A stretch of DNA of 34,709 nt, from contig PBEP01000011.1 of assembly GCA_002719775.1 (NCBI GenBank), positions 22,672 to 57,380 on the forward strand. The letters are read 5' to 3'. Shown here piece by piece: positions 10,615-31,807 of the stretch. Source of the stretch: Chloroflexota bacterium. GTDB lineage: Bacteria; Chloroflexota; Dehalococcoidia; Lucifugimonadales; Australimonadaceae. The first letter of the stretch is position 1. Each line of letters starts with the position of its first letter. The notes under the pieces are model-generated. The model saw only the letters and a program-made list of their open reading frames with translations, made no database searches and had not been told where the DNA came from. A program made the translations under genes and the position numbers.

Positions 10615-11499
10615 ATGGAAAACGAAACACGCAAGTATCACCAGTCCGTTTTGCTTAATGAAACTATCGACGCTTTAATGCCTGAAAGCGAAGGCATCTA
10701 CATTGATTGTACTTTAGGTGACGGCGGACATTCCGAAGCAATTCTTAAGGCAAGTGGTCCTGCTGGCAGGGTGATTGGGATCGACGCTGACCCTGAAGCA
10801 CTCGCGGAAGCAGAGCATCGATTAGAGTCTTATCGACCACGTGTGCGATTTATCAATAGTAACTTTTCTGCGTTAGCAGAGGTGGCCTGGAAGGAGGGCC
10901 TAAGTCAAGTAAATGGGGTATTGCTGGATCTCGGTGTTTCAGCCAGACAGCTAGACACCGAAAAACGAGGTTTCAGTTTCCGTAGAGCGGAATTCCTCGA
11001 TATGCGGTTCTCTCCAAGTAATGGGGTTACTGCAGATGAAATAGTCAACTCAATCCCAGAGGCGGAATTAGTTGATGTCTTGTTCAGGTATGGCGAAGAA
11101 CCCAGAGCAAGGCGAATCGCAAGTTCAATAGTATCGGCTAGGCCAATCAAGGACAGCATGCACTTAGCTGAAGTAATAAAGCTAGGTTCTGGGTACAAGT
11201 TTGGGAAAATACATCCCGCTACCAGAACATTCCAAGCCCTTCGAATACTCGTTAACCAAGAGCTGGAAAAGCTTGAGCAAGCCTTGGTTTCTGCAACATC
11301 TATATTGATAAATGGGGGAAGGCTTGTTGCAATTGCATACCATTCTTTAGAGGACAGGATCATCAAGAATTTCATACGTTCTTCTTCAAATCTTGAACGT
11401 ATTAACAAAAAAGTGATCAGGCCATCAAAAGATGAAATTCAGAACAACAGAAGAAGTAGAAGTGCCCGAATGCGAATAGCAGAAAGGCATGCTGGATAA
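10615..11499 (+). CDS. rsmH: 16S rRNA (cytosine1402-N4)-methyltransferase
   Basis: YHQSVLLNETIDALMP, YIDCTLGDGGHSEAIL, GVLLDLGVSARQLDTEKRGFSFR, AYHSLEDRIIKNF. Confidence 0.97.
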   Translation: MENETRKYHQSVLLNETIDALMPESEGIYIDCTLGDGGHSEAILKASGPAGRVIGIDADPEALAEAEHRLESYRPRVRFINSNFSALAEVAWKEGLSQVNGVLLDLGVSARQLDTEKRGFSFRRAEFLDMRFSPSNGVTADEIVNSIPEAELVDVLFRYGEEPRARRIASSIVSARPIKDSMHLAEVIKLGSGYKFGKIHPATRTFQALRILVNQELEKLEQALVSATSILINGGRLVAIAYHSLEDRIIKNFIRSSSNLERINKKVIRPSKDEIQNNRRSRSARMRIAERHAG

Positions 11500-11554
11500 A
11501 GCCCGCATTAGCGGCAAAATCGCGCCAAGGTAGAGAACCAAAAAGGGAGTAGAA

Positions 11555-12649
11555 ATGTTTGAGTCATTTGGATCTAATCAGTTACCACCTACGGATGGAC
11601 TAGCAATGGTCAAGGTCATTGGTGTGGGCGGAGGAGGCTCTAATGCCGTCAACCGCATGTACCGCGAACGAGTTCCTGGGGTTGAATACTTAGCAGTTAA
11701 TACTGACACTCAACACTTACTGAGAATGGATGTGCCTGTCAAGATTCGCATCGGCGATAAACTCACTAGGGGCCTTGGTGTCGGTGGTGACCCTGAAATT
11801 GGGAACGCTGCCGCGGAAGAGTCTCGTGAAGAGCTTTACGAAGCAGTTCGAGATGCCGATCTAGTTTTTATTGCTGCTGGAATGGGTGGTGGTACCGGAA
11901 CTGGTGCTGCCGCAGTAATGGCACAAGTAGCTAAAGAGACCGGTGCATTAACAATTGCAGTGGTAACCAAACCCTTTGGTTTTGAAGGTCGTCGCAGAGC
12001 CATGAATGCTGATGACGGCCTGGCCAGGTTAAAAGACAACGTGGATACGCTAATAGTGATCCCTAATGACAGATTAGCCGCATTCTGTGAAGAAGAAGTA
12101 ACAGCCGAACAGGCATTTAGAATTGCTGATGATGTTTTGAGGCAAGGGGTACAGTCTATTGCAGAGTTAGTCACCGTACCAGGTGAGATTAATCTGGACT
12201 TTGCTGATGTCAAGACAATCATGAGTGGTGCCGGTCCTGCCTGGATGGCTATTGGAACTGCTTCAGGAGAAAACAGAGCTGTAGAAGCGGCTAAGAATGC
12301 AATAAATAGCCCAATGCTCGATGTGAACATAGAAGGTGCCAAGGGTGTAATTTTTAATATTACAGGCGGAACCGACTTAACTCTTAGAGAAGTAAATGAT
12401 GCCGCCAAGGTAATTCAGTCAGCAGTAGATCCAGAAGCAAACATCATTTTCGGAATGGTTCCTGATATGAAAATGGAAGGCGAAGTCCGAGTGACCATCA
12501 TTGCAACTGGTCTGCCTACTGTAGATGCAGCCAACCTTCGAGATGATGATCTATCAGGGATATTGAGAGACGTACTTGGTGAAAGCCATGAAAGTGAAGC
12601 AGATCTTCCTGCATTCTTACAGGCATCACATCAAAAAGAAGCTAGCTAA
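11555..12649 (+). CDS. ftsZ: Cell division GTPase FtsZ (conventional paralogue)
   Basis: [28 protein letters not shown] tubulin signature, T7 loop [11 protein letters not shown], short C-terminal peptide DLPAFLQ. Confidence 0.97.
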   Translation: MFESFGSNQLPPTDGLAMVKVIGVGGGGSNAVNRMYRERVPGVEYLAVNTDTQHLLRMDVPVKIRIGDKLTRGLGVGGDPEIGNAAAEESREELYEAVRDADLVFIAAGMGGGTGTGAAAVMAQVAKETGALTIAVVTKPFGFEGRRRAMNADDGLARLKDNVDTLIVIPNDRLAAFCEEEVTAEQAFRIADDVLRQGVQSIAELVTVPGEINLDFADVKTIMSGAGPAWMAIGTASGENRAVEAAKNAINSPMLDVNIEGAKGVIFNITGGTDLTLREVNDAAKVIQSAVDPEANIIFGMVPDMKMEGEVRVTIIATGLPTVDAANLRDDDLSGILRDVLGESHESEADLPAFLQASHQKEAS

Positions 12650-27917: not shown

Positions 27918-29381
27918 TTAATCGTTTTTCCTGCGGAACCTCTTTAAGAATCCTGGTAGTTCTATCTGGGGCTCTTGGTTATTTTCCATTTCCTCTTCCG
28001 GAGACAAACTATCTTCCAGTAAATCCTCAAATGTAGGACCAAAATTATCTTCTGTCGGCAGTCCTGTCGCTATTATGGTCACCCTCACTTCTTCTTCTAA
28101 CCTAGGGTCCGTAACCATACCAAAAATGATATTGGCTTCGGGGTCAACCGCACGCCCAATAAACTCAGCTGCTTGATTGACCTCCTGCAACGTCAGGTCA
28201 GGTCCCCCAGTCACATTTAGTAAGACTCGAGTTGCACCTTCGAGAGGAGCATCCAGCAAAGGACTTGCTACAGCATTCCTTGCTGCAGTAATTGCCCTGT
28301 CTTCTCCTCTGCCATTTCCTATAGCTATCCAAGCAGGGCCAGCCTCTGCCATAACGGTCTTAACATCTGCGAAGTCCAAGTTGATTTCACCAGGAACTGT
28401 TACCAGCTCTGCTATTGACTGAACGCCTTGGCGCAAAACATCATCTGCTATACGAAATGCATTTGCCGTAGTCATAGTTTCGTCTGAAAGAGCTATCAAG
28501 CGGTCGTTAGGTATTAAAATCAGTGTGTCCACTCGATTTTCCATAAGTAACGCCCCTGTCTCAGCCTGAGCTTGTCGCCTTCTACCTTCAAAGCTAAAAG
28601 GCTTAGTCACGACAGCAATTGTCAGTGCACCTGTTTCTTTAGCTATTGATGCCACCACTGGCGCTGCACCTGTTCCTGTACCGCCACCCATTCCAGCGGC
28701 TACAAAAACCATGTCAGTGCCATTTATAAGGTCATATAATTCTTCCCTAGATTCTTCAGCAGCTTCTCTTCCCAGCTCAGGATCACCTCCAACTCCTAGC
28801 CCTCTCGTAAGTTGATCTCCTATCCTGACTTTATGCGGAACGTCAATGCTCAAGAGGTGCTGTGCGTCGGTATTAACAGCCACGTAATCCACGCCAGGGA
28901 TTGCCTGTGAGTACATCCTAGCAACCACATTGGATCCTCCACCGCCAACACCAATTACTTTTACTGAAGCAACTCCTAGCGGAGGAGCTTGATCCGCGTT
29001 GTATTTGATTTCTTGATTTTTAGGGTCTGGATTAGTCAATTTTGAATCCTCCGAAGAAGAGCTTTCTATGTTCACTGTAGCTAAATTCTCTCTGCCCTCC
29101 AAGATGCGCATTAAACGTACCCAAGTATTGGACGCCACTTCAGAAGGCTTTAACAACCCTTGCTCTAAAGCTGCAAGGGTTTCACTTGGGATATCAAGCT
29201 CTTCAGATAATTCTTCTAAAGTGTACCCTCGTTCTAAGCGTTTTTCTCGCGTATTATTGCCAATTTTTATTAGCTCGATAGAAGGCTTAGATTTTAAACC
29301 TGCCCATCGGTTAAGAATTTCAGAAGAAAAGCGAATCCAGGAACCTCTAGACATTGTGATGCCATCATTAGAGCTATTCAT
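27918..29381 (-). CDS. FtsZ paralogue with N-terminal XRE-type helix-turn-helix domain
   Basis: Single uninterrupted 487-aa [41 protein letters not shown]...WVRLMRIL, acidic/Ser linker, then complete FtsZ ([50 protein letters not shown]). Confidence 0.93.
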
Positions 29382-30045
29382 TTGTTTCCTCTTCCCAAAA
29401 TCTTTGCATAATCGACATGACCTCTTCTCGATTGTATCCGGTTTGCTCTAAGAACATCTGAAAACGTGATTTAGCCCTTTCGATTTTGGATACAAGAGTA
29501 CGGTGGTTAGGCACATCAAGCATGTACTCTAGTTCAGAGTCTGAGTGGCCTTTCTCAAACTTTAACCTCAAAGCATATGCGTCCCTTTGAAATTCTGTTT
29601 CGAAAATCTGCCATGGACCTTCCTTGTTTTTGAATAGGTTCTTTGCAGTAGGCTTAACTTTTTTTATCTCGGGTTCACCATAGCTTGGTTGGTTTTGCAA
29701 TCCAGTGCCAAAGCTCTTTGTTAAAGTCCAATACTCACGAAATCTTGACTCTAAGGCTGCTACAAACCACTCGGCTGCTGAGCCGGTTATTCTTGTTGAA
29801 CTATTAGCAGATAGAAGATCCACTAGAGCGTCTTGAGCCACGTCATTTCGTGCATGTTCTGGTATTTGGGACAAGCCCCATTTAGATGGGTTGTCATAAA
29901 TTCTCGTGGCCAATTCAGAAAATAAAGCCTGTGCATCTAACAAGGTTCTTTCGTTAGTGCTAGGGTCAATGGGCCTGTCAGCTAAAAGCACATTAAGCCG
30001 TTTCAGGATTTCTTCGTCCGAATAATAACTCGGACTTGTAGTCAT
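29374..30045 (-). CDS. Sigma-70/ECF-like protein (putative)
   Basis: DVAQDALVDLLS...AAEWFVAALESRFREYW resembles sigma region 2; DAYALRLKFEKGHSDSELEYMLDVPNHRTLVSKIERAKSRFQMFL resembles region 4 HTH; overlaps HTH-FtsZ start by 8 nt. Confidence 0.6.
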   Translation of the reverse strand: MTTSPSYYSDEEILKRLNVLLADRPIDPSTNERTLLDAQALFSELATRIYDNPSKWGLSQIPEHARNDVAQDALVDLLSANSSTRITGSAAEWFVAALESRFREYWTLTKSFGTGLQNQPSYGEPEIKKVKPTAKNLFKNKEGPWQIFETEFQRDAYALRLKFEKGHSDSELEYMLDVPNHRTLVSKIERAKSRFQMFLEQTGYNREEVMSIMQRFWEEETNE

Positions 30046-30253
30046 AATAATTACCTTTCACAATCAGGAATACAAATTAACTCTAATTCCAGCTGATCAT
30101 ACCAGAAACCAGCTATATACAGCCAACTGAGATCGCTAGAAGTATCCCATCTTTATAAATATTATCAGGTTAGTGTTAAACTAATTTGATAAGCTAGCAC
30201 AAGTATATGGAATTCGTTGGTAGTCAGTGCTAGCATCTCTTTGTGGTATTTAT

Positions 30254-31807
30254 ATGGCTCTAGATAAAAAAACTCTCTCATCACTAGAAGTACTTCAGCA
30301 GAAAAAATCAGAAGCTAGTGGCGATAATCGCGCCGAACAACAACATTCAAGAGGTAAGTTAACAGCTCGAGAGCGAATTAATTTGCTTTTAGACCCTGGC
30401 ACTTTTCAGGAAGTTGGTTCCTTTGTAACTCATAGGGGTGTTGGAGTAGATTCTGATCAACAAAAGCACCCTGGTGACGCTGTTATCACTGGCTCTGGCC
30501 GTGTTAATGGTCGTTTAATTTATCTATTTGCCCAAGATTTTACTGTTTTCGGGGGTTCAGTTTCAGAAGTTGTAGCAGAAAAAATTTGCAAGGTTATGGA
30601 TACTGCTATCAAGAATGGGGCTCCAATGATAGGTCTCGCCGACTCAGGCGGGGCTAGAATCCAAGAAGGCGTGATCAGCCTTGCTGGATATGGCGAAATC
30701 TTTAGGCGTAATACCATGGCATCCGGAGTCATACCTCAAATTTCTGCAATACTAGGACCCTCAGCAGGTGGAGCAGTTTATTCACCTGCAATAACTGATT
30801 TCACTTTGATGGTTAGAGGCATTTCCCAAATGTTCATAACTGGACCTGAGGTTGTTAAGTCTGTTACGGGTGAAGACATCACACAGGAGGAATTGGGAGG
30901 AGCAGATGCTCACGCTTCTTTATCGGGGGTTGCACATTTTGTTTCGGACTCAGAGGAAGAGTGTTTTTCCACTATTCGAGATTTACTAGGGTTCCTGCCC
31001 CAAAATAATCTAGATGATCCACCAATGGGACCTCAAGATGACGACCCTGAAAGAATTGATGAATCTTTAAGAGAATCTGTTCCACAAGATCCGTCTCGAC
31101 CTTACGACATGATGGACATCATAGAAACCATAGTTGACGATGCGAATTTTCTACCTATCCATCAAGCCTATGCCCCAAATATGATCGTAGGTTTTGGGCA
31201 CATGGACGGACGAAGTGTTGGTATCATTGCTCAACAGCCTTCTTATTTAGCTGGTGTAATTGACATCAATGCGTCAATTAAAGGTGCTCGTTTTGTTAGA
31301 TTTTGTGATGCTTTCAATATTCCTATTATCACTTTTGTTGATGTGCCTGGGTATATGCCTGGTAAGGATCAAGAGCATCAAGGGATCATAAGGGAAGGAG
31401 CAAAGCTGCTGTATGCATTTGCTGAAGCGACAGTCCCCAAAATAACTGTGGTTACTAGGAAGGCGTATGGTGGTGCTTATATTGTGATGGGCTCCAAACA
31501 CTTGGGCAGTGACATGAATTTCGCTTGGCCTTCTGCTGAGATTGCAGTCATGGGGCCAGATGCAGCGGTTAACGTGATACATAAACGCAAACTCTCTGAA
31601 TCATCTGATGCTGATGCTGAAAGGGCGAGTCTCATTGCTGGCTATCGAGAATCCTTTGCAAATCCGTACCTTGCGGCAGAAAGGGGATATATTGACGATG
31701 TCATAGATCCCGCTACAACCAGACCTGTATTAATTAAAGCACTGGAATCTCTTCAGAACAAAAGGGATTCTATTCCGCCTAAAAAGCATGGAAATATTCC
31801 GCTATAA
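30254..31807 (+). CDS. Acyl-CoA carboxylase carboxyltransferase (beta) subunit, propionyl/methylmalonyl-CoA type
   Basis: KLTARERINLLLDPGTFQEVGSFV, DFTVFGGSVSEVVAEKICKVMD, IGLADSGGARIQEGV, PSAGGAVYSPAITDF, RKAYGGAYIVM. Confidence 0.93.
   Translation: MALDKKTLSSLEVLQQKKSEASGDNRAEQQHSRGKLTARERINLLLDPGTFQEVGSFVTHRGVGVDSDQQKHPGDAVITGSGRVNGRLIYLFAQDFTVFGGSVSEVVAEKICKVMDTAIKNGAPMIGLADSGGARIQEGVISLAGYGEIFRRNTMASGVIPQISAILGPSAGGAVYSPAITDFTLMVRGISQMFITGPEVVKSVTGEDITQEELGGADAHASLSGVAHFVSDSEEECFSTIRDLLGFLPQNNLDDPPMGPQDDDPERIDESLRESVPQDPSRPYDMMDIIETIVDDANFLPIHQAYAPNMIVGFGHMDGRSVGIIAQQPSYLAGVIDINASIKGARFVRFCDAFNIPIITFVDVPGYMPGKDQEHQGIIREGAKLLYAFAEATVPKITVVTRKAYGGAYIVMGSKHLGSDMNFAWPSAEIAVMGPDAAVNVIHKRKLSESSDADAERASLIAGYRESFANPYLAAERGYIDDVIDPATTRPVLIKALESLQNKRDSIPPKKHGNIPL

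Follow-up and report, generated by a model that had tools for sequence, protein, structure and literature searches.

What does a helix-turn-helix (HTH) domain do on FtsZ, a very conserved protein whose helper functions normally reside on separate proteins? The question is raised by a gene, here called HTH-FtsZ, in the 34,709 nucleotide stretch of Dehalococcoidia DNA that was analysed (the window). In the preliminary description the gene was read as one continuous ORF encoding a complete FtsZ behind an N-terminal HTH, and this was borne out by both TIGR00065 (NCBIfam ftsZ; 413.9 bits against a cut-off of 295.2) and Pfam (Tubulin, E 4.3e-46; FtsZ_C, E 1.3e-31), residues 137–487 representing a full FtsZ. 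The GGGTGTG signature, the NxDxxD T7 loop (NLDFAD) and the C-terminal peptide are all present as claimed, the first two being invariant in 11 aligned orthologues, and the protein is predicted from its sequence to polymerise. It thus shares the complete GTPase, T7 loop, C-terminal domain and C-terminal peptide with FtsZ of TIGR00065 but differs in the added N-terminal HTH domain of ~100 aa and its linker, in being a second copy and in its position outside the rsmH-ftsA-ftsZ cluster. No description of this architecture was found in the literature searched, the coverage of which was incomplete.

Table 1. Positions of the features discussed, numbered from the first base of the window.
Feature	Position	Strand	Remarks
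ftsA site of relatives (rsmH-ftsA-ftsZ)	11500..11554	+	here only 55 bases
Canonical HTH-less FtsZ paralogue	11555..12649	+	364 aa; shares 65% identity with the core of HTH-FtsZ
HTH-FtsZ	27918..29381	-	487 aa; ATG start; no internal stop
C-terminal peptide of HTH-FtsZ	27921..27962	-	contains ELPGFLKRF
FtsZ GTPase and C-terminal domains	28056..28973	-	residues 137–442; catalytic motifs intact
Ser/Glu/Asp-rich linker of HTH-FtsZ	28974..29087	-	evolves fast; variable
Family-specific N-terminal domain	29088..29381	-	residues 1–98; conserved helix, then XRE/RodZ-type HTH
XRE/RodZ-type HTH	29097..29282	-	residues 34–95; Pfam HTH_25, HTH_3; AF2 helices
Recognition-helix region	29157..29192	-	residues 64–75; acidic
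Amphipathic N-terminal helix, W-x-R-F...R-W	29304..29348	-	residues 12–26; conserved
Likely degenerate ECF-sigma-like protein	29374..30045	-	223 aa; its last 8 bases are shared with the start of HTH-FtsZ
Promoter-like block GCTGGTTTCTGGTATGAT (extended -10 type)	30096..30113	-	lies 50 bases ahead of the sigma-like ORF

The HTH had been placed at residues 38–95 (29097–29270), coordinates that are right, but the conserved domain begins earlier with a helix at residues 12–26. In this helix the residues W15, R17, F18, R25 and W26 are invariant in 11 aligned orthologues, its hydrophobic moment is 0.45–0.63 and it is helical, with low confidence, in the AF2 model. When searching Pfam, HTH_25 matched residues 45–75 (E 2.2e-5) with 24.6 bits, which is exactly the gathering cut-off of 24.6, and HTH_3 matched as well (E 4.6e-5, 23.8 bits against a cut-off of 23), residues 45–80 being covered by the two. 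The best model is the RodZ-type HTH_25, in line with the comparison to RodZ made earlier, and HTH-type profiles match most members of the group at E<=1 (HTH_31 in 10/11, HTH_25 in 8/11). AF2 helices were seen at residues 34–51, 55–62, 66–73 and 84–94, with a pLDDT of 54–81 for the block (77–81 at residues 41–70). The structure predictions were built on the sequences of the window and related loci and therefore on shallow alignments; the model of the full-length protein is mostly poor (mean pLDDT 52) because just two sequences went into it, and the Foldseek matches listed for it were all FtsZ. In genus g4 (L010–L014) the tail of HTH-FtsZ is a strongly amphipathic helix, LQRIARFFSNLFGG, with a moment of up to 0.87, possibly a direct membrane anchor.

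Pairwise codon comparisons at the nucleotide level gave an omega of 0.03–0.18 for the HTH domain and 0.01–0.18 for the FtsZ core, while the linker mostly ranged from 0.16 to 0.58 (0.04 in one close pair). The HTH stretch evolves as protein, under purifying selection, and the N-terminal domain holds invariant residues throughout six genera, E73, P79 and W87 among them. The start codons are located ahead of the HTH and have a Shine-Dalgarno-like sequence, GAGGAG or similar preceding the start in most members, and the start overlaps or abuts the upstream stop. A translation start after the HTH was ruled out on these grounds, as was an assembly or frameshift artefact, the fusion being found in 15 independent genomes.

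To follow the distribution of the fusion, 16 genomes representing seven genera of the window's family were compared, among them that of an uncultured Dehalococcoidia bacterium (CALGTL010000003). Full-length HTH-FtsZ was found in 15 of the 16, so the fusion is kept in orthologues; the genome in which it was not found (G006) is 60% complete and forms the deepest branch of the family. An HTH-less FtsZ is present in all 16. The full N-terminal domain was not found outside the family among 393 Dehalococcoidia genomes, where the other matches were partial and those inspected were ordinary XRE domains, and among the matches listed from 400 genomes of the phylum the HTH domain aligned with no FtsZ from beyond the family. 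An occurrence of the fusion in other lineages was thus rejected for the sampled class and phylum genomes, and so was a phage origin, as the phage matches covered only the FtsZ core with the HTH missing.

In a maximum-likelihood tree of the FtsZ cores the HTH-FtsZ copies fall into a single clade (support 100/100) that lies next to the canonical FtsZ of the family, and the genomes are grouped largely alike in both. The simplest reading is that the pair arose by one duplication early in the history of the family and was then inherited vertically. A different and very divergent second FtsZ without an HTH was seen in three genomes from other families of the order (G020, G036 and G058; L178, L181 and L179, respectively), and some of the divergent copies in those families lack the usual C-terminal peptide.

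When analysing the region upstream of HTH-FtsZ, a gene of ~220 codons was found directly upstream in 15 out of 15 loci, the ends of the two genes overlapping or abutting, never more than a few bases apart. Its product was not found outside the family among the 393 class genomes. No Pfam family reached its cut-off, Sigma70_r2 and Sigma70_r4 appearing below threshold in single members (E 0.06–0.17), and the nearest matches in outside genomes were ECF sigma genes (E 3e-5, 4e-4 and weaker). A profile search of the PDB aligned it collinearly with sigma-E (1or7) over regions 2 and 4 (E 0.1), and in a Foldseek search of 350,542 chains, with a query model of pLDDT 63, the best five matches were sigma-factor entries, mostly ECF (E 0.13–0.77). 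The product is likely a degenerate ECF-sigma-like protein. An ECF sigma gene is commonly followed by the gene for its anti-sigma factor, which puts HTH-FtsZ in the anti-sigma position; the order, with the sigma-like gene first and the second gene overlapping or abutting, is that of ECF sigma/anti-sigma pairs, but the second gene encodes HTH-FtsZ and no recognised anti-sigma factor, and the sigma-like protein is degenerate.

The promoter-like block upstream of the operon is nearly identical in three genera, g2 and g6 included, and is otherwise rare in the g2 and g6 genomes; it looks like an ordinary extended -10 element. No iteron-like repeat array was found at 29300–30400, and a TubZR-like centromere was ruled out since the locus has no repeats. 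A carboxyltransferase-like gene (30227–31807, + strand) is divergent from the operon, and in some relatives the sequence upstream points to the same neighbour.

Comparison of evolutionary distances showed that those of the HTH domain follow the sigma-like protein best of everything tested (r 0.89). The correlation persists without G000 and G002, and a partial r of 0.74 (p 0.0005) remained once the contributions of canonical FtsZ and of the FtsZ core next to the HTH had been removed. HTH and FtsZ core distances gave r 0.74, and distances of the linker and C-tail were mostly uncorrelated with the sigma-like protein. When each genus was represented by a single genome (n=6), the partial r was 0.48 (p 0.17) and significance was lost, and the signal of co-evolution is taken as supporting evidence only.

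The divisome context was studied by searching for SepF, MreB and FtsA. SepF was absent from 15/15 family genomes tested. No MreB could be recognised in the family, matches to MreB_Mbl being partial and situated in DnaK-sized frames (~640 aa) or at the FtsA locus (the window's genome is 76% complete), and a partnership of the HTH with MreB, as in RodZ, was ruled out on this ground. In relatives ftsA is located directly upstream of canonical ftsZ, while in the window rsmH ends at 11499 and canonical ftsZ starts at 11555, and neither the FtsA family nor the FtsA protein of a relative identified a homologue elsewhere in the window's genome (76% complete). Of the 15 genomes that have HTH-FtsZ, 14 keep ftsA. 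The C-terminal peptide of canonical FtsZ reads ADLPAFLQ in the window against LDLPPFLR or close in relatives, a change from PPFLR to PAFLQ that is as expected if the anchor is gone. The preliminary description, right about the architecture, had overlooked the sigma-like ORF, the second FtsZ in the window, the absence of SepF and MreB and the loss of ftsA.

The net charge of the recognition helix lies between -1 and -3 in 15 out of 15 orthologues (LPYEDLLMLEVG in others than that of the window), and the usual polar pattern of DNA contacts is lost from all of them. As a control, 21 ordinary XRE domains from Dehalococcoidia, picked for their similarity to the HTH of HTH-FtsZ, showed a mean charge of -0.24, although some come near the same helix charge and one reaches -2. 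The whole HTH domain is net negative in 14/15 orthologues. The best PDB sequence matches of the HTH are DNA-binding XREs together with an entry named DBP48. A classical DNA reader is, going by the residues, not favoured, and the earlier proposal that the HTH couples a Z-filament to DNA, as a built-in nucleoid occlusion, is disfavoured for the same reason. The alternative offered with it, a protein or membrane adaptor, fits better in its protein form, although MreB, the partner of RodZ, is not recognisable.

Our tentative preference is that the HTH is a protein-docking module, chiefly for the sigma-like protein encoded beside it, and that FtsZ assembly is thereby coupled to this partner. The HTH would dock the sigma-like protein without reading DNA, and HTH-FtsZ would form filaments, by itself or mixed with canonical FtsZ, on which the docked partner would be collected or from which it would be freed. 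Assembly of the Z-filament could thereby control how much of a sigma-like transcription factor is available, which would give a cytomotive filament a role like that of an anti-sigma factor; alternatively, what was once a sigma factor may now regulate the assembly of HTH-FtsZ. Docking is favoured because the pair is inseparable in all 15 loci and was not seen outside the family among the 393 class genomes, because the partner most resembles ECF sigma factors and HTH-FtsZ takes the anti-sigma place, because the recognition helix is acidic and the HTH is under purifying selection, because HTH distances follow the sigma-like protein best, and because the HTHs of SepH and RodZ set a precedent by binding division filaments as proteins. 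It is weakened by the fact that a tight operon alone may reflect dosage or stoichiometry and that the sigma homology of the partner lies below Pfam cut-offs and at Foldseek E 0.13 and worse. RodZ, which binds MreB, has likewise an HTH_25-type HTH, in its case cytoplasmic, tied to a cytomotive filament, but in HTH-FtsZ the domain is fused to the filament protein itself, with just HTH, linker and FtsZ and no transmembrane or periplasmic part recognised, in genomes without recognisable MreB. The boldest form of docking, in which an ECF-derived sigma protein is captured or set free on assembly and transcription thus reads out the state of the filament directly, in bacteria presumed to be without a peptidoglycan wall, we regard as unlikely.

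The main rival, possible if on the doubtful side, is a built-in counterpart of SepH, an actinobacterial FtsZ regulator whose HTH binds FtsZ and not DNA and which stimulates assembly (PMC7968930). The HTH would bind its own or canonical FtsZ filaments in cis or trans and nucleate, bundle or cap them, leaving the sigma-like protein as a modulator or merely co-expressed; such an organiser would be useful where SepF is missing from the family and FtsA from the window's genome, and the HTH does track the FtsZ core to some degree. Both systems put an HTH to use in FtsZ biology, but SepH is a separate DUF3071 protein, a family without a Pfam match in HTH-FtsZ, and the HTH covaries less with the core than with the sigma-like protein. 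Tethering to specific DNA, with nucleoid occlusion, a fused segregation filament resembling TubZ-TubR or autoregulation by filament state as the outcome, would agree with the usual DNA binding of XRE domains, the PDB matches and the promoter block common to several genera. It is distinctly unlikely because the recognition helix is acidic in every orthologue, and the domain is mostly net negative, iteron-like repeats are missing and the block resembles an ordinary -10 element. TubZ-TubR plasmid partition also combines a tubulin-family filament with an HTH protein, but here there is one fused chromosomal protein with a true FtsZ sequence and no centromere repeats; SlmA and Noc share the possible theme of HTH-type DNA binding and Z-ring control but are separate proteins of other families, and DNA binding is unsupported for HTH-FtsZ. 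That the amphipathic N-helix and HTH anchor the protein to the membrane or envelope, standing in for FtsA or SepF, appears quite improbable: the losses of FtsA in the window's genome and of SepF throughout the family, the conserved N-helix and the g4 tail are consistent with it, but the N-helix may just pack against the HTH, and with ftsA kept in nearly all genomes that have the fusion, anchoring cannot be its original reason. That the HTH is just a passive appendage of a redundant FtsZ copy, as the variable linker and the HTH-less FtsZ of every family genome might suggest, is largely refuted by the purifying selection on the HTH, the invariant residues across six genera and its retention in the family, and is most improbable.

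The protein is a member of FtsZ whose domain architecture and partner gene are both new, and in which the HTH has become a permanent part of FtsZ, vertically kept across the family and locked to a sigma-like partner. The setting is the class Dehalococcoidia, whose studied members Dehalococcoides and the affiliated SAR202 are reported to be without peptidoglycan, reports that concern these two groups (PMC11994032). The fusion bears on how division proceeds where FtsA and SepF are both missing. The operon of HTH-FtsZ and the sigma-like gene suggests a direct link from the division filament to the transcription machinery, and makes a direct feedback of filament assembly on transcription testable.
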